Below are positions 696 to 16,204 of a DNA stretch of 64,000 bases, piece by piece. Source of the DNA: Eubacterium sp. (GTDB lineage: Bacteria; Bacillota; Clostridia; Lachnospirales; Lachnospiraceae); NCBI GenBank assembly GCA_017420535.1, contig JAFOIV010000082.1, positions 20,475 through 84,474 of the forward strand. The letters run 5' to 3'. Under the pieces are notes generated by a model. It was not told the DNA's origin. It searched no databases and saw only the letters and a list, made by a program, of their open reading frames with translations. The stretch's first letter is position 1. Each line of letters starts with the position of its first letter. The position numbers were made by a program, and so were the translations under genes.

Positions 696-1439
696 ATGGG
701 AAGAGTTGTTGCCATCAGCGGCGGAGATCTTCTAACTACAGAAAAACTTAATTTATATGCTTTAAAGCTTTCCCAAAATGAATCTCCCCATGTTTTATTT
801 ATTGGGACTGCCAGCATGGATTCAGAAGGGTATTTCGAAGGGATAAGGGCTGCATTTGAAAAGTTAAATTGTAGCGTAAGGGAGTTGCCTTTAACGAGAG
901 AAGAGCTTGATCAGGCTGAAATCGATGTAAGACTTGAATGGGCAGATGTCATTTATGTTGGTGGTGGTGACACAAGAACGATGATTAAAATATGGAAGCA
1001 GTATTCATTAGATAAAAAATTGAAGGAAATATATGAAAATGATACTGCTGTTTTGACAGGGCTTAGTGCTGGCGCTATTTGCTGGTTTATGGCCGGACAC
1101 AGCGACAGCTTCTCGGATGTGGATGAGAGGGAGTGCAGTGTCGTGGATGTGGATGAGAGGGAGTGCAGTGTCGTGGATGTGAAAGGAATAAAATATGGTA
1201 TCGTGGATGGAATGCTGGGACTTTTTCCATATTGCTTTTGCCCTCATTATAATGAAGAAGGGCGAGAGACATTTGATAGCATGATAACAGATACCAGGTA
1301 TGATGGACTTGCACTGGAAAATGAAACTGCTTTTGTAGAAGCATCTGGGGAACATTTCATTATAGGAGCCCGTGATGGCGCCCAGGCGTGGTCATTTAGC
1401 AACAGCAAAAAGCGTAAATTAGAGGTACGATATTTATAG
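696..1439 (+). CDS. Peptidase E-like serine peptidase (family S51)
   Basis: A 247-residue protein with the S51 fold signature: VAISGGD at the N-terminus, YVGGGDTRTM, and the nucleophile motif GLSAGAICWF with its serine near residue 124, then a PHYNEEGR stretch near residue 185 that supplies the conserved histidine. The family cleaves Asp-X dipeptides in the cytoplasm. ATG 696 is preceded by CGGAGG at 684-689. Oddly, a 30-base unit is duplicated in frame at 1115-1174, adding a ten-residue VDERECSVVD-type repeat just after the active-site serine. This may disturb the active site, so activity is uncertain. The stop codon abuts a palindromic repeat. Confidence 0.8.
   Translation: MGRVVAISGGDLLTTEKLNLYALKLSQNESPHVLFIGTASMDSEGYFEGIRAAFEKLNCSVRELPLTREELDQAEIDVRLEWADVIYVGGGDTRTMIKIWKQYSLDKKLKEIYENDTAVLTGLSAGAICWFMAGHSDSFSDVDERECSVVDVDERECSVVDVKGIKYGIVDGMLGLFPYCFCPHYNEEGRETFDSMITDTRYDGLALENETAFVEASGEHFIIGARDGAQAWSFSNSKKRKLEVRYL
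1115..1180 (+). repeat. 30-bp in-frame tandem duplication inside the S51 peptidase gene
   Basis: Bases 1115-1144 are repeated exactly at 1145-1174, and the first six bases of the unit occur a third time at 1175-1180. The unit length is a multiple of three, so the frame is kept and ten residues are added. The two copies are identical, which points to a recent slippage or duplication event. Confidence 0.95.
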
Positions 1440-1487
1440 GTTAACATAAAAATGGACCATAGCCCCCGGGACTATGGCTCATTTTGA
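1439..1487. repeat. Palindromic repeat, copy 1 (GGACC family)
   Basis: Starts on the last base of the peptidase stop codon with GGTTAACATAAAAATGGACC. The left arm GGACCATAG and right arm CTATGGCTC flank a CCCCCGGGA centre. The right flank is shortened (CATTTTG in place of CATTTTTATGTTAAC), so this copy is decayed at its 3' side. It could act as a terminator for the gene upstream. Confidence 0.85.
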
Positions 1488-1514
1488 AATTTGAGTTTGG
1501 TTTAGGAGATAAAA

Positions 1515-1988
1515 ATGAATATAGTCAGAAGAGCAGAAAATAAAGATATACCAAAAATCATGGACCTTTTGGTTCAGGTGGATATGGTGCATCATAATGG
1601 AAGACCAGATTTATTTAAAGGTCCGGCAACAAAATATAATGAAGTGCAGTTAGAGGAGATTTTAAAGGATGGCAGTAGACCTGTCTTTGTATGCGTAAAT
1701 GAAGCTGATCAGGTTTTAGGACATGCATTTACTGTTTTTAAACAGCTTAAGGATGACGCTGTTTTCACCGATGTTAAAACCCTTTATATTGATGATATCT
1801 GTATTGATGAAAGCAGTAGAGGAATGTCAGTTGGTAAGACTTTATATGAGGCTGTGGTTCAATTTGCAAAAGAAAATGACTGCTACAATATCAATTTAAA
1901 TGTTTGGAGCTGCAATAAAGGCGCTATGAAGTTCTATGAGAAAATGGGTCTTAAGCCCCAAAAAATTGGTATGGAAATGATACTATAG
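1515..1988 (+). CDS. GNAT-family N-acetyltransferase
   Basis: A 157-residue single-domain GNAT protein. Visible landmarks are the N-terminal RRAENKDIPKIMDLL, the beta-4 strand LYIDDICIDESSRG leading into the acetyl-CoA pyrophosphate loop SRGMSVGKTLYEA, and the C-terminal NVWSCNKGAMKFYEKMGL, where the tyrosine of FYEKMG is the usual general acid. The acceptor substrate cannot be told from sequence. ATG 1515 follows TAGGAGAT. It sits alone between two copies of the GGACC palindrome, with stop codon and copy 2 abutting, so it looks like an independently expressed gene. Confidence 0.9.
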   Translation: MNIVRRAENKDIPKIMDLLVQVDMVHHNGRPDLFKGPATKYNEVQLEEILKDGSRPVFVCVNEADQVLGHAFTVFKQLKDDAVFTDVKTLYIDDICIDESSRGMSVGKTLYEAVVQFAKENDCYNINLNVWSCNKGAMKFYEKMGLKPQKIGMEMIL

Positions 1989-2052
1989 GTTAACATAAAA
2001 ATGGACCATAGCCTCCGGGACTATGGTCCATACTCCGGGACTATGGTCCATA
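1988..2052. repeat. Palindromic repeat, copy 2, with duplicated right arm
   Basis: GGTTAACATAAAAATGGACC begins on the last base of the GNAT stop codon. The left arm GGACCATAG and right arm CTATGGTCC flank CCTCCGGGA. The right arm (CCGGGACTATGGTCCAT) is then repeated once more after the short spacer ACT, a 20-base duplication, and the T-run and terminal GTTAAC are missing. Confidence 0.9.
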
Positions 2053-2065
2053 ATGAGGGGAGAAT

Positions 2066-2452
2066 ATGAAGATAGAACATATTGCAATGTATGTAAATAA
2101 GTTGGAGGCGGCCAGGGATTTCTTTGTGAGATTCTTAGGCGGTGTTTCAAATGATGGATATCATAATAAAAAAACTGGTTTTAGATCTTACTTTATTTCA
2201 TTTGATGATGGCGCGAGGCTTGAAATAATGAATAAGCCAGATCTTTTGGATGATGTGAAAAATCTGAATAGAACCGGATATGCCCATATCGCTTTTTCAG
2301 TTGGATCTAAAGAAGCAGTTGATAATCTGACCCAGAAGATAAGTGATGCTGGGTATAGTGTCATTTCCGGTCCGAGAACAACAGGCGATGGTTACTATGA
2401 ATCATGCATTGTGGCAATTGAAGGTAACCAGATAGAGATCACAGCATCATAA
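2066..2452 (+). CDS. VOC-family (glyoxalase / bleomycin-resistance fold) protein
   Basis: A 128-residue protein spanning two beta-alpha-beta-beta-beta modules. Candidate metal ligands lie at the expected places: His5 in KIEHIAMYV, Glu in RLEIMNKP, His in GYAHIAFSV, and Glu in NQIEIT. That is the HEHE pattern of metal-dependent VOC enzymes such as lactoylglutathione lyase-like proteins. The true substrate is unknown; small-molecule lyase, isomerase or resistance protein are all possible. The start ATG 2066 follows GAGGGGAG. It lies directly after palindrome copy 2 and is separated from the next gene by 91 bases. Confidence 0.88.
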   Translation: MKIEHIAMYVNKLEAARDFFVRFLGGVSNDGYHNKKTGFRSYFISFDDGARLEIMNKPDLLDDVKNLNRTGYAHIAFSVGSKEAVDNLTQKISDAGYSVISGPRTTGDGYYESCIVAIEGNQIEITAS

Positions 2453-2543
2453 TTATCCCATTTATTGTTGTGTTTCACGCTCGATTTATAATAAAATAAA
2501 TGCAGGGTGCACACACTCAATATGAAAATATTGGAGGATTAAA

Positions 2544-3149
2544 ATGTTATACGATAAGACAAACCTTCCTGAAGACTTGAAAATGTATCTTCGAGAGATT
2601 TACAGCAACGAGGAATTAAATGATGTTTTTTATGACTGTGATATCGAAATCTATGATGAAGACGCAGTTAAGGATTTTGAAGATGATGAGGTCTGGCTGG
2701 ATGATCTGATGGGACCTGGAGATTCAAGTTATACGAATTTAAAGCCATTTGCCCGTGATGGAAGCGGCGCTTTGTGGGTTCTTATAGATGACAAAATGAT
2801 TGCTTATATCGGAACTGAAGGCGAGTGTGGTTTCGTCGCAAGAAATACTCATGAATTTATGAATATAGTATCTGTGTGGGGCGGATACATTTGTGATTAC
2901 TGGGAAAAAGAGATTTTGAAAAATAAGGATAAATTCTATGAAGTCATGAATGACCCTGACAGACTTGCTGACTATGATTTTATTGAAAGTCATAAAAGGG
3001 TGTTTAAACCCTTCATTGAAAAACATGGATTTACAAAAGATATCTATGAAATGGCTTTGGCCGGCATGTCAGTTGAACCTGTTTTTGAAGTGAAGGCTAC
3101 ATCTGATGAATATGTCGATTCTGAACCATTGGTAAGAGAAGATTATTGA
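2544..3149 (+). CDS. Acidic protein resembling SUKH/SMI1-type immunity proteins
   Basis: A 201-residue, strongly acidic, soluble protein with no signal or membrane segment. The middle part reads GALWVLIDDKMIAYIGTEGE followed by ARNTHEFMNIVSVWGGY. This resembles the SUKH pattern of a strand showing whether a display/status value is present, a Gly-Glu turn, and a helix with the phenylalanine of a HEFM/EEFL motif. SUKH proteins commonly neutralise contact-dependent or type VII toxins. No toxin gene is adjacent, so it would be an orphan immunity protein. ATG 2544 follows TTGGAGGATTAAA. The family call is by eye and moderate. Confidence 0.5.
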   Translation: MLYDKTNLPEDLKMYLREIYSNEELNDVFYDCDIEIYDEDAVKDFEDDEVWLDDLMGPGDSSYTNLKPFARDGSGALWVLIDDKMIAYIGTEGECGFVARNTHEFMNIVSVWGGYICDYWEKEILKNKDKFYEVMNDPDRLADYDFIESHKRVFKPFIEKHGFTKDIYEMALAGMSVEPVFEVKATSDEYVDSEPLVREDY

Positions 3150-3158
3150 AAATTAAGA

Positions 3159-3187
3159 GGCAGGCGTATGATTTACGCCTGCCTTTA
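3159..3187 (+). terminator. Intrinsic terminator after the SUKH-like gene
   Basis: GGCAGGCGTA and TACGCCTGCC form a perfect 10-bp stem around a 5-base loop, followed by TTTA. It begins 9 bases after the stop codon. Confidence 0.8.
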
Positions 3188-3240
3188 TGTATGTAATGTC
3201 GGCCGATATATGTATGTAATGTTGGCCATATATGTATGTT
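3186..3240. repeat. Short tandem repeat TATGTATGTAATGTYGGCC
   Basis: Two near-identical 22-23 base units (3186-3208 and 3209-3230) and a partial third (3231-3240) follow the terminator. No coding function is seen; 3241-3418 holds nothing else I can name except the ribosome binding site of the next gene. Confidence 0.75.
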
Positions 3241-3418
3241 TAACCATGAATTCAGGCGGCAATTAAATCTTGGATAATCACAGGGGCAACGGCTGGTTGC
3301 GTGCAAAAAAACGCCGTCCATATTAAAATGTATTTAATGCATAAGATGCTGATAAAAAATATCAGTAAAGACAATCATCAAGATCAAAAAAGCATCAGGA
3401 ATGTACAGGAGGGACAAT

Positions 3419-4183
3419 ATGGAAACAAAAAGTATTTTATATAACCTTAGGACTAAAAATGGTCTGTCGCAGGATGAGTTGGCGGAGAAAGTCTTCGTTA
3501 CAAGGCAGGCAGTTTCACGTTGGGAAAATGGCGAAACAGTACCAAATACAGAAACATTGAAACAACTTTCAAAACTGTATAATGTTTCAATCAACACGCT
3601 GTTGGGGCTGCCTCATAAACTCATTTGCCAGTGCTGCGGAATGCCGCTGGAGGATGAAATCATGGGAAGAAATGAGGACGGATCAATAAATGAGGATTAT
3701 TGCAAATGGTGCTATGCGGATGGAACTTACACCTACAGTAATCTGGATGATCTGATAGAGGTTTGCATTCCTCATATGGTAAATGCTGATTTCACAGAGG
3801 AGCAGGCGAGAGAGTATCTTAAAATGACTCTGCCTAATTTGGATTACTGGAAAAGGTATGATGAACTCGGGGATGGCGGAAAGTTTGAGGAGTTTAAGCA
3901 GAAGCTGATAAATGAGATAAATGAACTTCATATCGACGGTATGCCAAAACTCACAAAGTTAAATGCTCTTGTGGGAAAATATGTCAATCTGGAATATAGA
4001 CTCCCAAGTGGACTTAATGTGAAATTTCTGGATGATCAGGTCACATATCTTGGAAATCAGCTGGAATCAGAGATCGTAGATGGGCTTTGTTTTGGAGTCA
4101 TTGCTAATATGGATTTCATTTTAATCTGCACCTATGAGGAAGAAGGAAAAAATCCAGAGTTGATAATGTATAAGAAGAGATGA
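3419..4183 (+). CDS. XRE-family regulator with zinc-ribbon domain
   Basis: A 254-residue protein. Residues ~1-60 form an XRE helix-turn-helix (LRTKNGLSQDELAEKVFVTR, then QAVSRWENGETVPNTETL). Residues ~68-100 carry a putative zinc ribbon with CQCCGMPL and DYCKWCYADG, four cysteines in two CxxC knuckles, followed by a helical segment with EEQAREYLKMTLPNLDYW. This HTH plus zinc-ribbon design is known from Firmicute regulators of unknown ligand. The last ~70 residues look like a small beta domain (lipocalin-like or MORN-like; unsure). ATG 3419 is chosen over 3401 because AGGAGGG (3408-3413) precedes it. Confidence 0.85.
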   Translation: METKSILYNLRTKNGLSQDELAEKVFVTRQAVSRWENGETVPNTETLKQLSKLYNVSINTLLGLPHKLICQCCGMPLEDEIMGRNEDGSINEDYCKWCYADGTYTYSNLDDLIEVCIPHMVNADFTEEQAREYLKMTLPNLDYWKRYDELGDGGKFEEFKQKLINEINELHIDGMPKLTKLNALVGKYVNLEYRLPSGLNVKFLDDQVTYLGNQLESEIVDGLCFGVIANMDFILICTYEEEGKNPELIMYKKR

Positions 4184-4523
4184 TATGTTATGAACACAGC
4201 GCGTAGGAAATGACAAATAATGTTATGACATTGAGAACTGGCGGAAATATAAAAAATTTATATTGACAATGAGTTGTCTGTTAATTATACTCAAAAAATA
4301 TTATTTTCAGAAAGCGAGACATTATGGGAAATCTTATTCTTGTCACAGTGCATATGGTAAAACCACAATCCGTGAACGTCCTTCAGGGGTTTGTTTTTGA
4401 TATGCATGATGAGGATAGGGGAAGCTGTAAGTAATATTTTAGCTTTATTAAATGATACCGTTAACATAGCCTCATCAAGCGAAATGTTTGATGAGGCTTA
4501 TTTTTTTACAAGGAGGCTCTGAC
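4184..4523 (+). other. 340-base gap: promoter, small ORF, terminator
   Basis: A strong promoter-like pair TTGACA (4263-4268) and TATACT (4286-4291) has a 17-base spacer. GACAATGAGTTGTC, an inverted repeat of GACAA, overlaps the -35 box and could be an operator. A 36-codon reading frame (4324-4434) follows, without a recognisable family; it may be a remnant. The arms GCCTCATCAA and TTTGATGAGGC (about 4469-4499) followed by seven T's make a clear terminator immediately upstream of the next gene's ribosome binding site. Confidence 0.6.
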
Positions 4524-5075
4524 ATGAAGATTAAAGAACAAAGATTTATATTACCTGATGGCTGCGAGGTTACCATTAAGAGTGCTGGCCCAGAGGATGC
4601 AATGAAGATAAAACTTCATAGAGAAGCAACTGCGGGGGAGACTCATTTTATGGCAAGGGAACCGGAAGATGGGCAGATTGATCTTCAGCTGATAAGAGCG
4701 GGGATTTGCAGTATTTCCGAAAGTGACAGGGATTTTTTAGTCAGTGCTTTTATCGGCGACGAGCTGATCGGTGATCTTGGGGTGACTCTAGTAAGGCCGC
4801 ATTTAAAATATCTTCATCGAGCCTACCTGGGAATGTCAATCCGCGAGGCTTATACTGGGATGGGGCTTGGAAGCTTTATGATGAAGGTTGCGCTGGAGCA
4901 GGCAAAGGAAAATGGATTTGAGCAGGTTGAACTTGGCGTGTACAGCGATAATGACAGAGCAAGGCACATGTATGAGAAAATGGGCTTTAAGGAATACGGA
5001 ATGAATCCGAGGGCATTCAAGCTGAAGGATGGGACATATAGGGATGAGATCATTATGGCCAATATCTTTAAGTAA
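4524..5075 (+). CDS. GNAT-family N-acetyltransferase
   Basis: A 183-residue GNAT protein. Key segments are LGMSIREAYTGMGLGSFMMK (strand beta-4 and the acetyl-CoA loop, Q/RxxGxG/A type as YTGMGLG) and VELGVYSDNDRARHMYEKMGFKEYG, with the MYEKMGF tyrosine as likely general acid. It resembles RimI/PhnO-like acetyltransferases from Clostridia; substrate unknown. Start ATG 4524 is preceded by AAGGAGG at 4510-4516; the longer frame from 4488 would place its start inside the upstream terminator, so it is rejected. Confidence 0.88.
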   Translation: MKIKEQRFILPDGCEVTIKSAGPEDAMKIKLHREATAGETHFMAREPEDGQIDLQLIRAGICSISESDRDFLVSAFIGDELIGDLGVTLVRPHLKYLHRAYLGMSIREAYTGMGLGSFMMKVALEQAKENGFEQVELGVYSDNDRARHMYEKMGFKEYGMNPRAFKLKDGTYRDEIIMANIFK

Positions 5076-5167
5076 AATGCCTGAAGCATTGAGAGAAAAC
5101 TGTAAGGCGTTTTCAAAGATGGATAAACCTGGTGGTAAATGAAAAATGTGTAAAGGAGATCAATAAT

Positions 5168-5686
5168 ATGAAGCGTGAACTTGAAACAGACAGATTAATT
5201 CTTAGAACAGTAACAACTGATGATGCGGAGGCAATATTTAAGTGGACATCAGATCCTGACGTAAATACATTTATGAATTATACAGTCCATGAAAGTGTAG
5301 ATTTCACAAGAGAATGGATTAAAACAAGAAATACTGATGGAGCGGAAGAATTTGATCTGGGATTTGTTTTAAAAGAAACAGGTGAGATGATCGGAATGGG
5401 CGGACTATTTTATAAAAAGGATATAGATGCCTGGGAGATCGGATATAATCTTAGAAAAGATTACTGGGGAAAAGGTCTGGTTCCAGAGGCGATACGTGCA
5501 CTTATTGATTATGTAGATAAAGAAAAAGGCGTGCGTGCAATTGTAGGTGAATTTGCTGTTGATAATAATAAGAGCAGGCGTGTAATGGAAAAGCTTGGTA
5601 TGACTTACTGGAAAGACAGCAAGTATTCTAAAATGGATGGAAGCAAAACATTTGAGGCGCGCGTGTACAGGAAGGAACTAAAATAA
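5168..5686 (+). CDS. GNAT-family N-acetyltransferase, RimJ/RimL type
   Basis: A 172-residue protein of the Acetyltransf_3 type: starts MKRELETDRLILRTVTTDDA, contains IGYNLRKDYWGKGLVPEAIR (acetyl-CoA loop WGKGLVPEA) and ends with a VDNNKSRRVMEKLGMTYW segment typical of RimJ/RimL. Such proteins acetylate ribosomal protein N-termini or small molecules; the acceptor is not predictable. ATG 5168 follows AAAGGAG (5152-5158). It is the second of two unrelated GNAT genes in a row and is followed by a methyltransferase 76 bases later. Confidence 0.9.
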   Translation: MKRELETDRLILRTVTTDDAEAIFKWTSDPDVNTFMNYTVHESVDFTREWIKTRNTDGAEEFDLGFVLKETGEMIGMGGLFYKKDIDAWEIGYNLRKDYWGKGLVPEAIRALIDYVDKEKGVRAIVGEFAVDNNKSRRVMEKLGMTYWKDSKYSKMDGSKTFEARVYRKELK

Positions 5687-5762
5687 GAGGAAGTCAGGAT
5701 TCTATAATCATTGGATGCAAGTATTTAGAAAAACAAAGAAAGATTTAGAAAGGGGAGCTGCT

Positions 5763-6551: not shown

Positions 6552-6573
6552 AGAGCATAGTTAAATAATATAC

Positions 6574-6632
6574 AAGTTGACATAAAAATGGACCACTGCC
6601 CCCGGGACTATGGTCCATTTTTATGTCAACTT
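6574..6632. repeat. Palindromic repeat, copy 3 (hybrid arms)
   Basis: AAGTTGACATAAAAATGGACC at the left and GGTCCATTTTTATGTCAACTT at the right form nearly perfect outer arms. The inner arms do not match: CACTG on the left, CTATG on the right, around CCCCCGGGA. This looks like half of a CAC/GTG-type copy joined to half of a CAT/ATG-type copy. A-run and T-run on both sides make it a bidirectional terminator candidate. Confidence 0.92.
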
Positions 6633-6662
6633 AACAGACGGTTGTTAAAACTCTAAATTTAC

Positions 6663-6697
6663 GTTGTTGTGGGGGAGGGCTTGATGCTTTAAAATGA
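6663..6697 (+). repeat. Flanking repeat shared with 12481-12515
   Basis: GTTGTTGTGGGGGAGGGCTTGATG followed by a TTTAAAAT run here matches GTTGTTGTGGAGTAGAGATTGATG followed by TTTTAAAAT at 12481, in the same place downstream of palindrome copies 3 and 5. The similarity is about 85 percent by eye. It may be an extended part of the palindrome element or a shared promoter region. Confidence 0.6.
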
Positions 6698-6757
6698 ACC
6701 TTGTCAGTTGAAACTGAAGCTTCGTTTCTTCAAAATATAAAAAGGAGAATACGTAAA

Positions 6758-7310
6758 ATGAATATTGGTAATAAGATTAAAGCCCTTCGTTTAAAGGCAA
6801 GTGCAACACAGGAAATGTTAGCTGAGGCTCTTGGTGTAAGCAGTCAATCTGTTTCTAAATGGGAGAATAATGTATGTGCCCCTGATATATCACTACTTCC
6901 AGAGATTTCGGAGTTCTTTGGAGTAACTATAGATGAGCTTTTTGACTTAAGCTGAGTACCGAGCTAAAGATGCATGGGAAATTGTATCAAGACTTGAGAA
7001 TGACTATCCTGACAGTTATGATGCTATTTTTGAAGTGGCTGGAATATATGCAAAAAATGCAAGATACGAAGAAGCACTAAAGAGATATAAAAAAGCCGAG
7101 GAATTAGGCAAGGCTGATAAGGAACATGTATTTATGGATCATTTGCAGGCGCAGGCTTTGATATATGAAATTCTAGGAAGATATACTGAGGCTTATGAAT
7201 ATGTTCAGCGCCAGATTGACTTTCTTAATGATGAATGGAACATAACAGAAGGTGCAGACGTGGATGCACTCGAAGAAGAGAAAAACAGATTATTGAATCT
7301 CTTGTTATAA
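6758..7310 (+). pseudogene. XRE regulator with TPR-like C-terminus, frameshifted
   Basis: ATG 6758 (AAAGGAG at 6741-6747) opens a 65-residue XRE HTH: NKIKALRLKASATQEMLAEA, VSSQSVSKWENNVCAPDI, and FFGVTIDELFDLS before TGA at 6953-6955. Immediately after, in another frame (from 6951), the protein resumes as EYRAKDAWEIVSRLENDYPD, then GIYAKNARYEEALKRYKKAE and ALIYEILGRYTEAYEYV, two or three TPR-like helix pairs, ending at 7310. Intact relatives join the two parts through a longer linker. A small deletion with frameshift at about 6950 explains the split. The HTH part alone could still be made as a short DNA-binding protein. Confidence 0.75.
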
Positions 7311-7382
7311 TTCCAATATCGTTAGGAAAAATGTATAATCATTTTGACAAGAACGTTAAATTAAAGATTGGAAAAAAAGTTT

Positions 7383-8072
7383 ATGAACATACAGATTGTA
7401 GAAGATGATAGATCACTAAGTGATGGGATAGAGATTACGCTTTCAGACGGGGAGGCTGTTTTTTATAAAGAATACCTGATAAATGATGCCATGACAGGCT
7501 TTGAGAGATACGGGGCTGAGCTTTCGCTTATCATTTTGGATCTTAATCTTCCGGATGGAATAGGTTATGATTATCTGAAATTTGTGAGAGAAAGAAGTGA
7601 AGTTCCTGTGCTTATCCTTACAGCAAATGATCTTGAAATGGATGAAGTTAAGGGACTCACAATGGGGGCGGATGATTATATAACAAAACCATTTAGTCTG
7701 GCGGTTCTTCGTGCAAGAGTAAATGCACTTACGAGACGAAATTCTAATTCAAAAAATGTGGCTCTTTCAAAAGGGACTGTTTATGAAATGGATGAGATGA
7801 CATTTGACTTCGAGAAGCTTGAATTTAAAAAAGACGATGAAGAAATATTCTTAAGTTTAAATGAGCAGAAGCTGCTAAAGGTTTTTCTTGAAAATAAGGG
7901 AAGAATACTTACCAGGGAAATGCTTATGAATAGGATCTGGGGAAATGATGGTGACTTTGTGGATGAGAATGCCCTTTCAGTTACCATCAACCGCCTGAGA
8001 AGTAAAATAGATAAGGATAAGAATAAAAAGCATATCAATACAGTTTATGGACAAGGTTATAAGTTTGAGTAA
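7383..8072 (+). CDS. OmpR-family response regulator
   Basis: A 229-residue two-domain regulator. The receiver domain shows the acidic pair in QIVEDDRSL, phospho-acceptor Asp in LIILDLNLPDG (~residue 54), the Thr of LILTAND and the Lys of DYITKPFSL. The C-terminal winged helix (~130-229) contains LSLNEQKLLKVFLENKGRIL and NALSVTINRLRSKI, typical of OmpR/PhoB. It is encoded 33 bases before a cognate kinase and upstream of an ABC exporter, so it probably controls that exporter in response to a peptide or cell-envelope stress. ATG 7383 is preferred to the in-frame TTG at 7368; the ribosome binding site is weak (GGAAAAAAAG). Confidence 0.93.
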   Translation: MNIQIVEDDRSLSDGIEITLSDGEAVFYKEYLINDAMTGFERYGAELSLIILDLNLPDGIGYDYLKFVRERSEVPVLILTANDLEMDEVKGLTMGADDYITKPFSLAVLRARVNALTRRNSNSKNVALSKGTVYEMDEMTFDFEKLEFKKDDEEIFLSLNEQKLLKVFLENKGRILTREMLMNRIWGNDGDFVDENALSVTINRLRSKIDKDKNKKHINTVYGQGYKFE

Positions 8073-8105
8073 AGCTGAAGATAAGTAAGTCTAAAGGAAA
8101 CAAAG

Positions 8106-8966
8106 ATGTTTGAGAATAAAACAATAAAACGATTGGAAGAAATGCTGGATTCTGCCGTAAATGGTACATTTGTGGAAAACAGTTATGATGAGACCAGGCT
8201 GTCCAGGCTGGAGTCAAAATGGAAAGAGTTTTTGGGAAGCTCAGTCTTATCCAATATTAATTTAGAAGAGGAGCGTCACAGGTTAGAGGAGTTTATATCC
8301 GATATTTCTCACCAGACTAAGACGCCAATGACAAATATTAAGATGTATACCGAGCTGCTTTTAGAGGAGGCAGGATCAGGGGAAAATGTATCACTTGATA
8401 AGATAACGCGTTACGCTGAATTGATAAACAGGCAAAATTTAAGACTTCAGTTCCTTATTGATTCACTTACGAAACTGTCTAGGCTTGAGAGTGGAACTCT
8501 TGAAGTTGTTGGACAGGATAATGAAGTCGATACGCTGATAGAAGCGGCAATATCTTCAGTTGCTGCAAAAGTGGAGATGAAGAATATTGAGATAGAACAT
8601 ATCAGAGCAAAAGACGTTACAGCATCATTTGATATGAAATGGACCACTGAGGCACTTTCTAATGTCATTGATAACGCAGTTAAGTATTCGCCGGAAAAAG
8701 GCAGGATAAAAGTTTTTACAGAAACTTATGATATGTATCAGGCTATACATGTTATAGATAATGGTGCGGGTATTTCGGAAGAGGATATGGCCAAGATCTT
8801 TGGAAGATTTTACAGGGGAAGTGAAGTACAGCAGGAAGAAGGCGTTGGGATCGGGCTTTATCTTACAAGAGAGATACTTGCTAAAGAAGACGGTTATATA
8901 AAGGTAGTACCTAATAATAAAAGAGATGGCGGCGAACTCGTCATGTACCTAAAAAGGTTAACATAA
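8106..8966 (+). CDS. Sensor histidine kinase without membrane segments
   Basis: A 286-residue kinase made almost only of the catalytic core. The dimerisation/phospho-acceptor helix has SDISHQTKTPMTNI (His ~69), then N-box NVIDNAVKYSP, D/G1 box VIDNGAGISEED, F-box FGRFYRG and G2 box GVGIGLYLTREI. No transmembrane helix or sensor domain is present; the ~60 N-terminal residues look helical and charged. It may sense through the adjacent ABC exporter, as Bce-type kinases do, or be N-terminally truncated relative to family members. Its last codons (RLT, stop) lie inside palindrome copy 4, which supplies the stop codon. Confidence 0.9.
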   Translation: MFENKTIKRLEEMLDSAVNGTFVENSYDETRLSRLESKWKEFLGSSVLSNINLEEERHRLEEFISDISHQTKTPMTNIKMYTELLLEEAGSGENVSLDKITRYAELINRQNLRLQFLIDSLTKLSRLESGTLEVVGQDNEVDTLIEAAISSVAAKVEMKNIEIEHIRAKDVTASFDMKWTTEALSNVIDNAVKYSPEKGRIKVFTETYDMYQAIHVIDNGAGISEEDMAKIFGRFYRGSEVQQEEGVGIGLYLTREILAKEDGYIKVVPNNKRDGGELVMYLKRLT

Positions 8967-9017
8967 AAATGGACCATAGTCCCGGGGGCTATGGTCCATT
9001 TTTATGTCAACCTTTTA
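8951..9017. repeat. Palindromic repeat, copy 4, overlapping the kinase stop codon
   Basis: AAAAGGTTAACATAAAAATG on the left pairs with CATTTTTATGTCAACCTTTT on the right. The inner arms are GGACCATAG and CTATGGTCC around TCCCGGGGG. This is the best conserved CAT/ATG-type copy, about 65 bases end to end. It overlaps the last 15 bases of the kinase gene, so the kinase C-terminus is written by the repeat. It separates the two-component genes from the ABC genes. Confidence 0.93.
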
Positions 9018-9123
9018 AAAGATTTCAAAAGTGAAAGAATTGAGAAATAATCTGGTAAGAATCCTATGATATAGTATTTACAAACCAAAAGGAACAATCA
9101 GTATTTAACGGGAGGCTAATTAG

Positions 9124-9789
9124 ATGTGCATTTTAAAAGCAACTGAATTAAAGAAATATTATGGCGAGGGAGAGACTCAGGTGAAGGCGCTTGACGGCGT
9201 TTCCCTTGAGGTAAATAGAGGTGAATTTGTTTGTATCATAGGAACCAGTGGAAGTGGAAAATCAACGCTTCTTCATATGCTTGGGGGACTTGATAATCCT
9301 TCTTCTGGAAATGTGATCATTGATGATACTGATATATCGAAGTTAAAAGGCGATAACCTTTGTATATTTAGAAGAAGAAAAATAGGTTTTATATTTCAGA
9401 GTTTTAATCTGGTTCCATCCATTTCAGTTTATGACAATATCATTCTTCCGATTCAGCTGGATGGAAAGAAAATAGATAGGGAATTTGTGGGTAAAGTAAT
9501 TGATACTTTGGGATTAAAAGATAAGTTGGATAGAATCCCTTCTAAGCTTTCCGGAGGACAACAGCAGAGAGTTGCAATAGCAAGAGCTCTTGCTTCAAAG
9601 CCGGCGATAATACTTGCAGATGAGCCGACTGGAAATCTGGATAGTAAAACAAGTCAGGATGTTCTGGGACTTTTAAAGACAACAGGTAAGAAGTTCAACC
9701 AAACAATCGTTATGATCACACATAATGATGAGATAGCGCAAATGGCTGATAGAACGATAAGAATTGAAGATGGACACATTGTAAGATAA
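9124..9789 (+). CDS. ABC transporter ATP-binding protein, MacB/LolD/BceA type
   Basis: A 221-residue ATPase with every motif intact: Walker A GTSGSGKST, Q-loop FQSFNLVPS, signature LSGGQQQRVAIARAL, Walker B IILADEPTGNLDS, and switch His in MITHNDE. The PTGNLDS form and the FNLVP Q-loop are typical of the type VII (MacB/BceA/LolD) exporters. ATG 9124 follows GGGAGG at 9110-9115. The permease starts 11 bases after its stop, so the two are translated together and form one complex at the cytoplasmic membrane. Function is likely peptide or lipid-targeting antibiotic resistance; this is inference. Confidence 0.95.
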   Translation: MCILKATELKKYYGEGETQVKALDGVSLEVNRGEFVCIIGTSGSGKSTLLHMLGGLDNPSSGNVIIDDTDISKLKGDNLCIFRRRKIGFIFQSFNLVPSISVYDNIILPIQLDGKKIDREFVGKVIDTLGLKDKLDRIPSKLSGGQQQRVAIARALASKPAIILADEPTGNLDSKTSQDVLGLLKTTGKKFNQTIVMITHNDEIAQMADRTIRIEDGHIVR

Positions 9790-9800
9790 AGAAAAAGGAA

Positions 9801-12401
9801 ATGAAAAAAATGCAGAAAGTAAAAAATAAAAAAGCTGTATCGAAGCTTGCTCTTAGCGGAATCAAATCAAATAAAAAGAAATATATAGTATTAGTAGCAG
9901 CGGTAATTCTCACAACCCTTCTATTTTCATCACTTTTTACAGTTGGAGGAAGTTTAATAGCGGAAACTCAGATTTCTACCATGAGACAGATTGGAACAAC
10001 CTATCATGCGGGATTTAAAAACTTAAGTCAGAGTGAGTATGAAAAAGTAAAGGACGACCCATATGCTAAGAATATGTCATATTGTATTACGGTGGGATAT
10101 TTATCGGATGACAAGTTAAATAAGTTACCTACTGAGGTTTATTATGCAGAAGCCTTGAATGCAAAGAAATGTTTCTGTTATCCAGAAGTTGGAAGTCTTC
10201 CTGTTAAGGAAAATGAAATTGTGACCAGTGATCTTGTCCTTGAAAAACTGGGAGTTGAGGCTAAGGTCGGAAGTACATTTAAAATAAATCTTTTAATTGA
10301 CGATAAAGAAATCCAGCAGGAATTTACACTCAGTGGTTATTATCGTGGTGATAAGCTTGCAAAAGCTCAAACTGCACTTATCTCAAAGGACCTTCAGGAA
10401 AAGGTTGCACCTGTAAAGACCATCACTTTCCCTGAGAGAGAGGATAACAAAACGGCAGGTTTTATAAGTGTTTACTTTGATTTTAATAACAGTTTTAACA
10501 TTGAAGATAATGTTGTAGATCTGATCGAGAGAACAGGACTTAGAAATGATGTTGATTATGGTATAAATTATGCATACGCAGGATATGATATTGATCCATC
10601 AATGGTCATCATATGTGGAGTGATGCTGGTTACATTTTTTATTGCAGGATATCTTATCATTTATAATATCTTTGATATAAATATCGTTTCTGATATGCAG
10701 GAATATGGACTCCTTAAAACAATAGGAACAACAGGAAAACAGCTTAAGAAGATCGTTATGAAGAGAGCAAATGTCATCTCTATTATAGGAGTTCCTATCG
10801 GACTGCTTCTAGGAATCGGCGTAGGCACAGTAGTTCTTCCATTTATTTCAGATCAGATGAATACAATGACTGTTGGTAAGGGAGAGGTACATTTAAATAT
10901 CTGGATTATCATCGGAGCGGCATTATTTTCATATCTTACAGTAGTTATAAGCGCTTTAAGACCTTGCAGAAAGGCGGCGAAGGTATCACCGATAGAAACT
11001 CTTAAATACACAGAAGAGTCTGGAAATGATGCCAGGAGAGGAAAAAAGATTACTGTAGTTATCCTTTCATTATCGCTGGCGCTGGTTATTCTTAACAGTG
11101 TTATAGGATTAGTCAGCGGATTCGATGTAAACGAATTTGTTAAGAGTGATATAGTGGGTGATTTTAGCATTCAGGATGCATCTTTAGATAATATGGCGGC
11201 GTCATTTCATGAAACAGATTCTGTAGATTTAGATCTTATGGAAATGGTACAGAAACAACCTGGTGTAAAAGAAACAGGAAATATATATGTTTCTACATTT
11301 TGGCAGGAGTTTTCAGATGAGAGCTGGAATATTCTAGAGGATAACTTCTTTAAGGAAGAAGCAATAAAGGACTGTATCAATAGCTGTTATACAAGCGGAA
11401 GTTATGATTATGAAGCTTGTATGAATGATTATAGAAAGTCAAAAACCTTAGCAGGTAATACATATGGAATGGGAAAATTCGCTACTGGTAAGCTTAGTGT
11501 TGTGGAAACTATCGATGGCTCAGATAAGATTGATTGGGAGAAGTTTAATTCCGGAAACTATGTCCTTGCAACAAGATGGACTATGGACGGTCAGTTTTTT
11601 ATCAATATTGTTGAGCCGGGAGATAAGGTACAGATAAGAAGTCATGATCCAAAGTATGCCGAGATTACTGATGAGCCAGTCGAAACAGGAAGCAGAACTT
11701 CATATACAAGTTATGAAAATGCCCCGGTTAAAGAGTATGAAGTTTATGCAATAGTAGATATTCCTATTCCTATGAAATATCCAGTGTCAGAATTTATTGA
11801 ATTAAATTATATACTTCCTGAGAATGAATTTCTTTTGATGGAAGGAGATAAAGGGGCTATGAGAATGCTCGTTGATGTTGAAGATGATAAGGAAGAGTCA
11901 TTTGAAAAATGGATCGCAGAATATACATCTTCTGAAGATCCAAGCATGGACTATAGATCTAAGAAAAGTGTTACTGAGGAATATAAGTCTCTTAGCAATA
12001 CAATAGGGATAGTGGGGATAGTTCTTGCAGTTATACTTGGACTTATAGGTATCATGAATTTTGCTAATACAATGGTAACCTCTATAATCGTAAGAAGCAG
12101 AGAACTCGCGATGCTTGAAGCAGTTGGAATGACAGGACGTCAGCAGAGGCATAAGCTTATGAAGGAAGGCTTTACATATTTCCTGCTTACAATGATCGTA
12201 TCAGTAGTTATCTCATCTATCCTAAGTGTTACTGTTATAAGATTCTTGGCAAAGGAACTTGAAATGTTTGTATGGAGATTTACCCTCTTACCTTTAGTCT
12301 GCTGCCTTCCGATCATGTTAGGCCTTATAGTGATAATACCAGTTATCGCACATAATAGACTCAGCAAAAGAAGCGTCATCGACAGACTTCGTGTAGAATA
12401 A
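9801..12401 (+). CDS. FtsX-like ABC permease with large extracellular domains
   Basis: An 866-residue membrane protein. One TM helix near residues 30-52 is followed by an extracellular domain (~55-270), three TM helices with an FtsX-like core (~275-395, including YGLLKTIGTTGKQLKK), a second TM and an extracellular domain (~415-715), then three more TM helices (~720-850) with a matching RELAMLEAVGMTGRQ coupling motif. The duplicated FtsX layout with GTTGKQ and GMTGRQ coupling helices fits the 8-10 TM type VII permeases. It pairs with the ATPase directly upstream. Two-component neighbours suggest induction by its substrate. Confidence 0.93.
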   Translation: MKKMQKVKNKKAVSKLALSGIKSNKKKYIVLVAAVILTTLLFSSLFTVGGSLIAETQISTMRQIGTTYHAGFKNLSQSEYEKVKDDPYAKNMSYCITVGYLSDDKLNKLPTEVYYAEALNAKKCFCYPEVGSLPVKENEIVTSDLVLEKLGVEAKVGSTFKINLLIDDKEIQQEFTLSGYYRGDKLAKAQTALISKDLQEKVAPVKTITFPEREDNKTAGFISVYFDFNNSFNIEDNVVDLIERTGLRNDVDYGINYAYAGYDIDPSMVIICGVMLVTFFIAGYLIIYNIFDINIVSDMQEYGLLKTIGTTGKQLKKIVMKRANVISIIGVPIGLLLGIGVGTVVLPFISDQMNTMTVGKGEVHLNIWIIIGAALFSYLTVVISALRPCRKAAKVSPIETLKYTEESGNDARRGKKITVVILSLSLALVILNSVIGLVSGFDVNEFVKSDIVGDFSIQDASLDNMAASFHETDSVDLDLMEMVQKQPGVKETGNIYVSTFWQEFSDESWNILEDNFFKEEAIKDCINSCYTSGSYDYEACMNDYRKSKTLAGNTYGMGKFATGKLSVVETIDGSDKIDWEKFNSGNYVLATRWTMDGQFFINIVEPGDKVQIRSHDPKYAEITDEPVETGSRTSYTSYENAPVKEYEVYAIVDIPIPMKYPVSEFIELNYILPENEFLLMEGDKGAMRMLVDVEDDKEESFEKWIAEYTSSEDPSMDYRSKKSVTEEYKSLSNTIGIVGIVLAVILGLIGIMNFANTMVTSIIVRSRELAMLEAVGMTGRQQRHKLMKEGFTYFLLTMIVSVVISSILSVTVIRFLAKELEMFVWRFTLLPLVCCLPIMLGLIVIIPVIAHNRLSKRSVIDRLRVE

Positions 12402-12406
12402 TCCAC

Positions 12407-12463
12407 AAGTTAACATAAAAATGGACCACAGTCCCGGGGGCAGTGGTCCATTTTTATGTTAAC
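12407..12463. repeat. Palindromic repeat, copy 5
   Basis: GTTAACATAAAAATGGACCA on the left and the matching TGGTCCATTTTTATGTTAAC on the right are perfect outer arms of 20 bases. The inner part reads CACAGTCCC and GGGGGCAGTG, a CAC/GTG arm type with small mismatches. It lies 8 bases after the permease stop and is a strong bidirectional terminator candidate. Confidence 0.95.
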
Positions 12464-12480
12464 AACCACTTTTTATTAAA

Positions 12481-12515
12481 GTTGTTGTGGAGTAGAGATT
12501 GATGTTTTAAAATAG
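12481..12515 (+). repeat. Flanking repeat shared with 6663-6697
   Basis: Second copy of the GTTGTTGTGG...TTGATG..TTTAAAAT block, 17 bases after palindrome copy 5 (30 bases after copy 3 in the other case). It lies in the leader of the following hydrolase gene. Confidence 0.6.
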
Positions 12516-12571
12516 ATGTGTTAATGAAAAATGTACTAATCAATCATCTTTAAGGATTATGGGGGTAAAAA

Positions 12572-13708
12572 ATGAAAGAAAATGAATCTATGCTTGAAGA
12601 AAATAAAAAATCCAGGAAACCAAAAAAATCCAAGAAATCCAAAAAGAAGATAATTCTCATTATTCTACTTAGCATCATAGTTTTAATGGTAGCAGGCTGG
12701 TGGGCTTTTTGTGTTAAGCTCTATGAGGAAAATTTAAATACCAGTGCAGACAGCTATGAACCATTGATGCTTCGGGTGGAAGATTTTGAGGGATTAGAGT
12801 GTAAAGAGTATTCTTTCCCATCTAATAAGGGACAGCTTCTGGCTGGTTATTTATACAGCAATGGAGAAGATCAGCATGCAGTTATGGTCATAGCTCACGG
12901 ATTTGGTGGCGGCGGTCATAATTCCTACATGGATGTAGCGGATTACTTTGCTAAGAAAGGCTATTATGTCTTTGCATATGATGCCACAGCGATGGATAAG
13001 AGCGAGGGAAAAAGTTTAGGTGGTGTTCCTCAGGGCGTGATAGATCTTAGTTATGCCATTTCATTTGTAGAATCCTGTGACGATCTTTCTGATCTTCCAA
13101 TCGTTCTTTTCGGACATAGCTGGGGCGGATACTGTGTAAGCGCTGTTCTTACATATCATCCGGAAGTTAAGGCTGTTGTTGAATGTTCTGGTTTTAACAG
13201 CTCGCCAGATATGTTTGAATCAGGTGGAAAAGATCAGGCGGGAAGTATCATTTACGCGATGAGGCCTTTTATTGCAATCCATGAGCGCTGCAAATTTGGC
13301 AAATACGCTTCAAATACAGCCATGGACGGCTTTGACGCTACTGATGCTAGGGTGATGATAGTGCACAGCGCTGACGATAAGGTGATAGGAATTGAGTACG
13401 GATTAGATAAATATTATAAGAAATATAAGGATGATCCTCGTTTTACTTTCATCAGATTTGAAGATAAAGGGCATAACAGTATTTTAAATGATCCTGACAA
13501 TACTTACGAAGATGAATTAAATGCTGATTTTGACAAATGGCTCAAAACCCTTGATTATGATTATAATGCAAAAGAAAATAAAGAGCGTTTCAAAGAGGAT
13601 AAAGCTAACTATCTCATTAAAAATCTTGATCATTATAAATGGAGCCATAGGTTGGATGAAGGTTTGTGTGAGAAATTCCTGGATTTTTATGAGCAGGCCT
13701 TGCAGTAG
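12572..13708 (+). CDS. Membrane-anchored alpha/beta hydrolase
   Basis: A 378-residue protein. A very basic N-terminus (KKSRKPKKSKKSKKK) precedes one TM helix (~residues 26-46: IILIILLSIIVLMVAGWWAF), so the catalytic domain is probably outside the cell. The alpha/beta hydrolase core has the oxyanion loop HGFGGGGHNSYM, nucleophile elbow FGHSWGGYC (Ser ~190), acid in MIVHSADDKVIG and catalytic His in FEDKGHNSI. The substrate is unknown; relatives are annotated as lysophospholipase-like or cinnamoyl-ester hydrolase-like. ATG 12572 follows a run of G's (ATGGGGG). Confidence 0.88.
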   Translation: MKENESMLEENKKSRKPKKSKKSKKKIILIILLSIIVLMVAGWWAFCVKLYEENLNTSADSYEPLMLRVEDFEGLECKEYSFPSNKGQLLAGYLYSNGEDQHAVMVIAHGFGGGGHNSYMDVADYFAKKGYYVFAYDATAMDKSEGKSLGGVPQGVIDLSYAISFVESCDDLSDLPIVLFGHSWGGYCVSAVLTYHPEVKAVVECSGFNSSPDMFESGGKDQAGSIIYAMRPFIAIHERCKFGKYASNTAMDGFDATDARVMIVHSADDKVIGIEYGLDKYYKKYKDDPRFTFIRFEDKGHNSILNDPDNTYEDELNADFDKWLKTLDYDYNAKENKERFKEDKANYLIKNLDHYKWSHRLDEGLCEKFLDFYEQALQ

Positions 13709-13824
13709 CCTGGGTCAGAATTGGAATTTCGGTAAAACAATTAAGATTATATCAGGAGTAATGGAAATGGTGTATATTTTCATGATTCATGAGTTCGTTC
13801 TTCTTTATATGTAAGGAGGTTGCA

Positions 13825-14823
13825 ATGAATACTATAAATGTTTTTGATAATGGATTTAATATTAATGGAAATGATCTGATATTTCCGCTTTCTTATGACG
13901 AGATAAAGGATGTACTTGGTGAAGCCAGAGTTGTTAATGATGATGAAACTCATACTTCATATTGCTATGATGAGCTTGGAATAGAATTTGATGGCTCGAT
14001 TGAATATCTGCCTAATCTTAAGAGAAAAAAGGCATACAAGGATAAAGAGCATAATATCATTGCACTTACTTTATATGTGACAGGTGAAAAAATATATGGT
14101 TTTAAGGATTCAAAATGTGAAAAAATTTATGAGGGAAGTCTAACTGTATTAGGAGAAAAAATCAGTAAAGATAACACCTGGAAAGACATACTTGGTTATG
14201 GCTGCATGCCAATAATTAAGATTAATAGCAAAGAAAAAAGGAACATTTTTGTAAGCAGTACTATTTTAACGGAAGACGAAGAGCCATTTTATGACGGGGA
14301 CAGGCTTAAAAAAAATGTTATCATTTCGTTCCACCCTGAAAGACCAAAGAGCAAGGTGGACTATACTATAGTGACTCCGGATGAAGAATGCCTGGTGTTT
14401 GATACATTTAATTTTAAGCTCGCTGTAATAAATGAACTTATGTACAACCAGGATGTGCTCGAACCTTACTTTGACATTTATGATTACATGGCCTTTAAGA
14501 AAGGCAAATGGAACCTTGAAACGGATAAGAATATCAGGGCGGCAGTTAACTATTTTAAAGAATTACCAATTCCTGCGCGCCTGGCAGATTTTGTGACTGA
14601 GATAAATATGGATGGGGCTGATGAAATCTATATGAACATAGCTCCTGAGTGGGATGGAAGAGACGAGAGATTTGATTTTAACAGCCTTACAGAGTCTGAA
14701 ATAAAACAATTCAAAAATCTTAAAAAGATGGTCATCTTTGGAAATGATAAAGATGCTGAAAAGTTACAGAAGATCTGCGGACCATTTGGAATAACAGTTG
14801 AGCCACTGGCTACGATTGGATAA
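13825..14823 (+). CDS. DUF6892 protein (with N-terminal DUF7738-like domain)
   Basis: A 332-residue acidic soluble protein. The N-terminal ~100 residues (NGFNINGNDLIFPLSYDEIK, then VLGEARVV..YCYDELGIEF) resemble the small domain I recall as DUF7738, which describes a conditional beta-rich fold. The C-terminal ~200 residues, from FDTFNFKLAVINELMYNQ, match the partial protein at the left edge. The family occurs in Clostridia next to immunity-like genes; no function is proven. ATG 13825 is chosen over 13789 because AAGGAGG (13813-13819) precedes it. A decayed GGACC palindrome follows 24 bases after the stop. Confidence 0.75.
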   Translation: MNTINVFDNGFNINGNDLIFPLSYDEIKDVLGEARVVNDDETHTSYCYDELGIEFDGSIEYLPNLKRKKAYKDKEHNIIALTLYVTGEKIYGFKDSKCEKIYEGSLTVLGEKISKDNTWKDILGYGCMPIIKINSKEKRNIFVSSTILTEDEEPFYDGDRLKKNVIISFHPERPKSKVDYTIVTPDEECLVFDTFNFKLAVINELMYNQDVLEPYFDIYDYMAFKKGKWNLETDKNIRAAVNYFKELPIPARLADFVTEINMDGADEIYMNIAPEWDGRDERFDFNSLTESEIKQFKNLKKMVIFGNDKDAEKLQKICGPFGITVEPLATIG

Positions 14824-14846
14824 AAAATTGTTGGATAAGGCGTAGA

Positions 14847-14890
14847 AAATGGTCCACCCCATGGTCCACATTTTGAGACTGTGGCCCGGT
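14847..14890. repeat. Decayed palindromic repeat, copy 6 (degenerate)
   Basis: AAAATGGTCCACCCCATGGTCCACATTTT followed by GAGACTGTGGCCCGG contains the GGTCCA arm twice and a partial opposite arm. It lies where intact copies lie, just after a stop codon. It looks like a scrambled member of the family. Confidence 0.55.
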
Positions 14891-14926
14891 CTAAAGTGAT
14901 GATAGATTATGTGATAAGGAGAATAT

Positions 14927-15595
14927 ATGAAATCTGGTGAAAGAGTTGTAAATGATCATGGCATAAGAGAAATAGTTGAGATTATTCTAAATGTCATTAT
15001 CCTTGTTTTGGTGGGAGTGGGTTCTGTAAAGACGTTTTTTAATAATGATAATAATTCAGCCCTTTTGTCGATAGGATTATCAAATCTTAAATACTTTACG
15101 GTTTTATCAAATATTTATTGTGGAATAATAGCTGCGGTAAGAATTTGCTTTTATTTCTTAAACAAAAAAATGCCTATGGTTTTAAAATTATCAGCGGCTG
15201 CCTCAGTAGGACTTACCTTCCTTACTGTTGCGGCTTTTTTGGCACCATTGTATCCAAATCATAATTTCTATCAAGGAGCAAATCTCTATTTTCACCTGAT
15301 TGTTCCGCTTATTGCTATGCTGGAATTTGTCATTTTAAGGAATGAAGAAAAAATACCTTTCAGATATACACTTGTTTCAGCTGCATTTTCGATTATATAT
15401 GGAATGGTATATCTATTAAATAATCTGATAAACGGTGTAGGACAGTGGCCTGATAGCAACGATTGGTATGGGTTCCTAAACTGGGGATATCCGGTGGGTA
15501 TAGCAATATTTGCCGTTATAGTGTTACTTAATTGGCTAATAGCGGTGATTCTTAGATTTTTAAATCATATACTAAACAAGCCTAATAAAAAATGA
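14927..15595 (+). CDS. Six-TM membrane protein, Pr6Pr-like
   Basis: A 222-residue integral membrane protein with six hydrophobic helices (about residues 14-35, 52-73, 86-104, 116-135, 143-163 and 187-209). LKYFTVLSNIYCGI, the NLYFHLIVPLIAMLEF helix and a WYGFLNWG loop before the last helix resemble the Pr6Pr (FAR-17a/AIG1-like) family. The role is unknown. ATG 14927 is preceded by AAGGAG. Palindrome copy 7 follows 13 bases after the stop. Confidence 0.7.
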   Translation: MKSGERVVNDHGIREIVEIILNVIILVLVGVGSVKTFFNNDNNSALLSIGLSNLKYFTVLSNIYCGIIAAVRICFYFLNKKMPMVLKLSAAASVGLTFLTVAAFLAPLYPNHNFYQGANLYFHLIVPLIAMLEFVILRNEEKIPFRYTLVSAAFSIIYGMVYLLNNLINGVGQWPDSNDWYGFLNWGYPVGIAIFAVIVLLNWLIAVILRFLNHILNKPNKK

Positions 15596-15608
15596 AACGG
15601 ACCATTTT

Positions 15609-15671
15609 GGTTAACATAAAAATGGACCATAGTCCCGGGGGCAGTGGTCCATTTCGGGGGCAGTGGTCCAT
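15609..15671. repeat. Palindromic repeat, copy 7, hybrid with duplicated right arm
   Basis: GGTTAACATAAAAATGGACC, left inner arm CATAGTCCC, right inner arm GGGGGCAGTGG: a left half of the CAT type joined to a right half of the GTG type. The right arm (CGGGGGCAGTGGTCCAT) is then repeated with a 19-base period, and the terminal TTTTTATGTTAAC is missing, as in copy 2. Confidence 0.92.
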
Positions 15672-15703
15672 CTTAAATATAAAATTTTTGGGAGGATGAG
15701 AAA

Positions 15704-16204
15704 ATGTTAGATGCTACATTTGGAGAAGTTGAATATGAAGAAGGCTATGCATATATAGGACACAAGGATTTGTTGTTTGGTGGAAAAGAACAATCTGTGG
15801 AAATATTAATTATGTGCGATGATGACGAGGAGGAGATCAGCCAGTTTCATCGTGATGCATTTGAAGCATTATTGCATGGGTGGGACGAGATAAAACATAA
15901 GATTGCTGATGCAATACTTGACTATTACAACAGTGAAGAAAAGGGCTCATATGGTCCGGATGATGAGGAAGAATTCAAATCATGGTGACCAGATATTGAT
16001 AGTGAGGACGAATTAGTAAAAATGATTCATTTAGAGTCTATTGTTATTGAGTCAGAATATGTCATGGAATCTAAAGGTGACAATCCACTCTATATTTTGT
16101 TCAGCCGTGACTGGGGTGGCGAGGATACGGAAGAAAATGGCGTCGCTGTACTAATAGAAGACGGAGAAGTAACCGAGGTAGGTTATAAAGATATAGCGTT
16201 TTAA
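15704..16204 (+). pseudogene. DUF6985-like protein interrupted by an in-frame TGA
   Basis: ATG 15704 (GGGAGGA just upstream) opens a 94-residue acidic frame ending SYGPDDEEEFKSW and TGA at 15986-15988. The same frame continues without another stop for 71 codons as PDIDSEDELVKMIHLESIVI, then LFSRDWGGEDTEENGVAVLI and VGYKDIAF, to TAA at 16202-16204. That matches the C-terminal part of the family I recall as DUF6985 (conserved WP.I.S.E.L, then a W.(E)..G.(A)V pattern and a G..D.AF end). A TGG to TGA change in a WW or WP pair would explain it. A short restart at ATG 16022 is possible but has a poor ribosome site. Confidence 0.75.

Follow-up and report, generated by a model that had tools for sequence, protein, structure and literature searches.

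What are the conserved GGACC palindromes that stand behind one gene after another at this locus, and how did they spread? The locus is a stretch of 64,000 nt (hereafter the window) from Eubacterium sp., a member of the Lachnospiraceae, whose genome assembly (G000) comprises 2.67 Mb in 134 contigs. An initial annotation of the window had listed six clear copies and one scrambled copy. It had suggested a mobile or recombining repeat, similar to repetitive extragenic palindromic (REP) sequences or to miniature inverted-repeat transposable elements (MITEs), which doubles as a bidirectional terminator and may help to swap accessory genes. Our results indicate that the palindromes very probably form a REP/REPIN-like family with a cognate REP-associated tyrosine transposase (RAYT), a Y1 HuH single-strand transposase. 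The copies were probably spread by this small enzyme, whose gene stands next to some of them.

The whole-genome search for which the initial annotation had asked revealed one dispersed family. In G000, the exact pattern GTTRACATAAAARTGRNCC matched 44 + 46 arms, 90 in total (reversed control, 0 + 0), and the arm at one mismatch gave 42 + 46 matches (reversed control, 0 + 1). A profile search found 76 elements in the element-bearing G000 contigs that were examined; at a looser threshold, there were 77 elements in the examined contigs of G000, 85 in those of its relative G018, and 71 in those of its relative G078. The elements carry either both outer arms (two-headed) or a single one (one-headed), the respective numbers being 38 and 31 in the examined G000 contigs, and 45 and 35 in G018. 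The consensus of 37 aligned two-headed copies (40 occur in the examined G000 contigs) is GTTAACATAAAAATGGACCAnAGTCCCGGGGGCTATGGTCCATTTTTATGTTAAC. In this alignment, 30 of 55 columns are invariant, but the copies were selected by their arms, so the conservation of the arms is partly built in. A- and T-tracts flank the two-headed copies on both sides. The centre carries GTCCC or GGGAC on one side in all 35 of 35 two-headed G000 elements. In addition, the elements are gathered in islands: 54 of 60 elements in G078 have a neighbour within 5 kb, while random placement gave a mean of 12.0 and a maximum of 30. Thus, the family is dispersed, extragenic, palindromic, and present in many copies, as REP sequences are. 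The consensus starts with GTTAACATAAAA and lacks the REP-type GT[AG]G tetranucleotide at the foot of the hairpin, and GTAGAC starts only 2 of 78 arm matches. No match was found in viral contigs searched for GTTRACATAAAARTGGACC or in plasmids searched with copy 5. Among the papers listed by our literature searches, none dealt with this element in Butyrivibrio or with REPINs that move gene cassettes.

A RAYT-like transposase had also been proposed as a search target. G000 has a single match to Y1_Tnp (PF01797), an open reading frame (ORF) of 261 aa which lies between the elements C96:26003-26057 and C96:27481-27535. This is the REPtron arrangement, in which a gene is flanked by its own repeats, and it occurs on both sides in G000, G018, and G078, and on the one readable side in a third relative, G082. 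Among 61 genomes of the genus, 36 have a Y1_Tnp match of some kind, many of them IS200-like. With the G000 RAYT as query, we found matches in 21 of the 61, with identities of 100% in G000, 97% in G078, 92% in G018, and 88% in G082 (over 125 residues, up to a contig end); the remaining 17 RAYT-bearing genomes reach only 28-39%. Meanwhile, the pattern GTTRACATAAAARTGRNCC occurs in four of the 61 genomes (44 + 46 in G000, 57 + 51 in G018, 55 + 39 in G078, and 27 + 21 in G082) and in none of the other 57. The RAYT lineage of 88-100% identity and the pattern are therefore found in exactly the same four genomes. Both the copy number and this co-occurrence support the REP-like nature that had been suggested.

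The protein itself has the features of a RAYT. Residues H60, H62, Y119, N123, and P124, which make up the HuH and Y...NP motifs, are invariant in 11 of 11 aligned RAYTs (11 of 22 ORFs were aligned). In a profile search of PDB, the TnpA-REP structure 4er8 was the sole sequence match (E = 1e-6). It was also the best hit in a fold search (E = 9.6e-7) with a model of L122, a 57% identical protein of Butyrivibrio sp. INlla18 that stands in for the G000 protein (pLDDT 88.3). The L122 model has helices at 196-255. Matches of the C-terminus to the helix-turn-helix (HTH) family HTH_23 are weak: 8 of 11 members match at E up to 1, the best at 0.0005, and the G000 RAYT lies under the cut-off. By these features, and placed without subclass profiles, the G000 RAYT appears to resemble TnpA-Y1 subclass 2.1, which has a C-terminal HTH.

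Palindromes were also found beside other RAYTs. A recurring palindrome, defined as one whose arms occur at least twice in the locus, lies within 700 bp at 31 of 98 RAYT loci inside and outside the genus. For RAYT-centred loci, 11 of 35 near windows had such a palindrome vs 11 of 140 windows elsewhere (odds ratio 5.4, P = 0.0007). The GGGAC/GTCCC motif is present in 25 of the 31 (shuffled mean 2.9, maximum 8); three of the 31 belong to our own family and there are further related members, which lowers the effective number. Among non-recurring palindromes, taken from anywhere in 100 loci that largely overlap with these, the motif is present in 8 of 107, and in 8 of 56 when the GC content is at least 40%. 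Some of these palindromes form families of their own. For instance, CGATTGGGGACGGTTCTGGG occurs 42 + 45 times in G011, where it flanks the RAYT, 2 + 5 times in G035, 1 + 4 times in G020, and once each in G002 and G036. TTCACAAAAGTTGTCACNGG occurs 3 + 6 times in G012 and 4 + 5 times in G065, whose RAYTs are 99% identical, and 5 + 2 times in G083. A headless variant palindrome, ATGAGCCCTAGGGGACTGTCCCCTAGGGTTCAT, was seen in G018 (C169, about 6930-6965), and it resembles those beside the L122 RAYT.

These results suggest the following course of events. The RAYT would recognise a single-stranded hairpin, perhaps via its GGGAC/GTCCC core, cut it, and copy it into other single-stranded DNA. Copies would persist behind genes because they bring stop codons and a terminator-like hairpin. 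Once in place, the 55-bp copies would act as portable homology, and recombination between two of them would delete or replace the intervening genes and leave one hybrid element.

Several observations weigh against a REP-like family moved by its RAYT. First, because the four genomes that carry the pattern are closely related, its co-occurrence with the RAYT lineage may represent a single evolutionary event. Second, the G000 RAYT scores 63.5 bits against the NCBIfam model REP_Tyr_transpos, whose cut-off is 80; among its relatives, the congener L104 scores 88.1, L117 79.3, and L122 77.1. Third, 10 more of the 61 genomes each have a single match to the bare arm at one mismatch, which in G036 is exact. 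Fourth, a colinear position was found for 45 of the 76 G000 elements in contigs that had been chosen for carrying elements, and 43 of these 45 have an element at the same site in G018, G078, or G082. Among the colinear sites compared there was no base-precise fresh insertion; a single site (G018, C41:1196-1250) is nearly empty, but it falls short of base precision. The spread is thus largely older than these species. Fifth, 67 of the 98 RAYT loci have no recurring palindrome within 700 bp, and over 31 RAYTs the identity of the proteins shows no significant overall correlation with the similarity of the palindromes (Spearman 0.059, P = 0.22); some of the closest RAYT pairs nonetheless agree in their palindrome. 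Finally, G020, G035, G036, and G083 have low-copy families of related palindromes, yet the search with the G000 RAYT gave no match in them. These could be relics after loss of the RAYT, or assembly gaps are possible.

In the window, the arm GTTAACATAAAAATGG gave nine matches at up to three mismatches, whereas shuffled sequences gave a mean of 1.71 and a maximum of 5, and none of 100 reached nine. The six copies are real, while their starts, first placed at 1439, 1988, 6574, 8951, 12407, and 15609, lie one to six bases further right (Table 1). Copies had been described as 0-24 bases behind stop codons, and this is true of copies 1-6 (0, 0, 24, inside the element, 7, and 14 bases); the scrambled copy, whose first GGTCCA is at 14851, lies 27 bases past the ORF end at 14823. 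Copy 4 provides the kinase stop, a TAA, as had been noted. All copies were thought to share both outer arms; at up to three mismatches this holds for copies 3, 4, and 5, but the other three are one-headed, and their single head lies towards the upstream stop codon. The reported absence from the core half (37-64 kb) was borne out, because the arm has no match past 15625 at this tolerance. The GC content is flat along the window (0.375 in 1-16 kb, 0.370 in 16-37 kb, and 0.383 in 37-64 kb). The folding energies of the six copies range from -14.2 to -35.3 kcal/mol (z = -2.9 to -9.8), and an Rfam scan of the window found no family at the gathering threshold.

Table 1. Coordinates of the palindromic copies and of the variable segment in the window
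Feature	Position	Strand	Remark
Copy 1, one-headed	1440..1485	+	0 nt past the stop of S51 peptidase-like ORF 696-1439
Copy 2, one-headed, with an additional inner hairpin half (second GGTCCA at 2045)	1989..2050	+	
Copy 3, two-headed 55-nt palindrome, outer arms GTTGAC...GTCAAC	6576..6630	+	
Segment bounded by copies 3 and 4, with a response regulator and the greater part of a histidine kinase (Pfam)	6631..8956	+	Missing from relative G078
Copy 4, two-headed, holds the stop of kinase ORF 8106-8966	8957..9011	+	
Copy 5, two-headed, both outer arms exact	12409..12463	+	7 nt past FtsX-like ORF 9801-12401
Scrambled inner-hairpin remnants, two GGTCCA, headless	14851..14868	+	
Copy 6, one-headed, inner half repeated (second GGTCCA at 15665)	15610..15670	+	

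A separate palindrome around TTTTGGTCCAGTGGACCAAAA at about 35761-35785 has only GGTCC/GGACC in common with the family. The region 13789-16817 holds accessory genes of unknown function, namely DUF6985 ORFs at 15704-15988 and 16287-16817 and a DUF6892/DUF7738 ORF at 13789-14823.

Gene content differs between elements. When the examined contigs of G000, G018, and G078 were compared in pairs, 107 junctions were obtained, of which 61 passed a simple-indel filter and represent 45 unique sites; the contigs were chosen for their elements and the assemblies are fragmented, so these numbers describe the islands rather than the genome. At 12 of the 45 sites, an element stands at both ends of the longer allele, and in 11 of the 12 there is one in the shorter allele as well; at the other 33, an element is missing at one or both ends. 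Eight junctions overlap by 44-64 nt, which is about one element, and all of them are at elements, while every other overlap is at most 23 nt. In place of the segment between copies 3 and 4, in which we also recognised by eye a small HTH regulator-like ORF, G078 has a single hybrid element, whose left flank and GTTGAC arm are those of copy 3 and whose centre and right flank are those of copy 4. A second hybrid is the G078 counterpart of C96:22793-23648. In G000 and G078, the two halves of two-headed elements show above-chance agreement at the three outer places tested; in G018, they do so at one of three. Pairing of the inner four bases is scarcely better than random (12/35, 8.8 expected, P = 0.085; 9/38, 8.2 expected, P = 0.44; 13/38, 8.4 expected, P = 0.04), as if halves had been exchanged.

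The suggested role in gene swapping therefore stands in so far as presence and absence from element to element is seen. However, random intergenic ends of the same contigs predict 7.05 of the 45 sites (P = 0.03), a modest excess, and no swap driven by an enzyme was shown. The same data could be explained if the RAYT were itself the enzyme that cuts out and inserts gene modules lying between two elements, as integron-like cassettes without an integrase. The element-bounded sites (with an element mostly left in the shorter allele), the eight overlap junctions, and the hybrids in G078 are consistent with this explanation. Nevertheless, we regard it as unlikely: merely intergenic ends already account for much of the count, homologous recombination between 55-bp repeats yields identical junctions, and the sole gene at two element sites may be paralogous. 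This gene (G000 C49:18849-20785 and G018 C169:4926-6860) is AAA-ATPase/PD-DEXK-like by eye; genes of this kind are often multi-copy, and as a possible paralogue it was not counted as a relocation. We give similarly little credence to a broader proposal, in which the HTH-bearing RAYT would be a single-strand cassette recombinase that acts on GGGAC-cored palindromes and moves element-gene units, integron-like without an integrase, with a palindrome code for each lineage. REPs do undergo homologous recombination with one another, and plain recombination of this kind is enough to account for such gene differences. Beside the variable segment, the orthologous ABC-transporter genes in G078 (C41:4125-5100, compared with window 9356-12416) are missing stretches of 246, 1145, and 683 bases (G000 coordinates), and the whole locus of the two-component system and ABC transporter seems to be decaying there.

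The position of the elements was evaluated with gene calls derived from ORFs. Among the 76 G000 elements, 70 were classed (29 + 27 codirectional, 9 convergent, and 5 divergent), 2 are inside ORFs, and 4 are at edges. The stop is closer than the next start in 43/48, 43/51, and 40/48 codirectional gaps. Judged by structure, the elements look like bidirectional terminators. A consensus terminator scan of the window called copies 1 and 2 only, on the minus strand. Other terminators were detected at 1 of 48 G000 gene ends with an element and at 5 of 107 without, and similarly in G018 and G078, numbers too small for power.

It could thus be argued that the elements are ordinary, immobile intrinsic terminators, alike through shared ancestry or gene conversion. 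They abut stop codons, they form strong hairpins with A- and T-tracts on both sides of the two-headed copies, and their sites are mostly common to close relatives. Furthermore, at the copy-4 orthologous site in G018 (78% identity), the element is replaced by a AACTCCCTCC...GGAGGGAGTTATTTTTTT hairpin similar to an ordinary intrinsic terminator. The initial annotation had taken occupation of the same positions in all relatives as the mark of mere terminators. The close relatives do share most of the positions that could be compared, but of the 60 other genomes of the genus, 57 lack elements. In addition, the sequence is conserved past the stem in the arm-picked copies, and the elements cluster in islands and co-occur with one RAYT lineage. 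Of the one-headed elements whose side could be named, 19 in G000 retain the stop-proximal head and 5 the other, with 20 and 6 in G018; they thus mostly lack the distal T-tract half that termination of the upstream gene would need. We therefore consider plain terminators improbable.

A MITE of another transposase family is still less probable. The element is a short dispersed inverted repeat, as expected of a MITE, whereas the RAYT lineage is present in exactly the element-bearing genomes; the search covered Y1 transposases and tyrosine recombinases. The least credible explanation is an integron attC array, which would fit the elements behind genes, the accessory gene content, and the element-to-element indels, but which we rejected as far as tested, because the element-adjacent genes lie on both strands, the best integron-integrase score (117 bits, cut-off 265) came from a protein above the cut-off as XerD (6 of 9 tyrosine-recombinase matches covered; C134, C40, and C19 left out), and C19, alone among these matches in lying on a contig with elements, scores below the Pfam cut-off. 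As a separate observation, three different tyrosine recombinases are adjacent in G000 (C108:934-3390; L062, L063, and L065), an arrangement that resembles triple-recombinase transposon modules.

A REP-like family with its own RAYT ties such repeats to accessory gene turnover in Lachnospiraceae. It also provides a RAYT matched with about 75 copies of its element, three close relatives for comparison, and a GGGAC core that many RAYT-near palindromes have in common, and hence a directly testable substrate.

Compared with the REP/REPIN and RAYT systems of Pseudomonas fluorescens and E. coli, the family shares dispersed extragenic palindromes and a Y1 gene with HuH and Y...NP motifs flanked by its own repeats. 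It differs in its near-perfect two-headed palindrome of 55 nt, its foot (GTTAAC instead of GT[AG]G), its GGGAC/GTCCC core, the putative HTH at the C-terminus of its RAYT, its islands, and its Lachnospiraceae host. According to the parts of Di Nocera 2013 (PMC3733652) available to us, REPs can supply stop codons to flanking ORFs, and in TIRtrons/TIRYTs a RAYT-like gene is flanked by long inverted repeats, some in moderately abundant families. The GGGGWSAS motif of TIRYTs, as given there, occurs in 9 of our 31 RAYT-near recurring palindromes (shuffled mean 0.3), but the three that belong to our own family lack it on inspection, and our element differs from a terminal repeat pair in being a compact palindrome that stands behind genes. 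The RAYT is most similar to TnpA-Y1 subclass 2.1 as presented in the parts of Quentin 2018 (PMC6006769) available to us: about 250 aa, a putative C-terminal HTH, Y...NP, and SS after the Y helix (S139-S140 by inspection). In those parts, neither automatic nor manual search found REP-like sequences near subclass 2.1 genes, in contrast to the 31 of 98 RAYT loci with a recurring palindrome in this study. Thus, we propose the family as a candidate REP-like partner for the HTH-bearing RAYT subclass, for which that source reports none.

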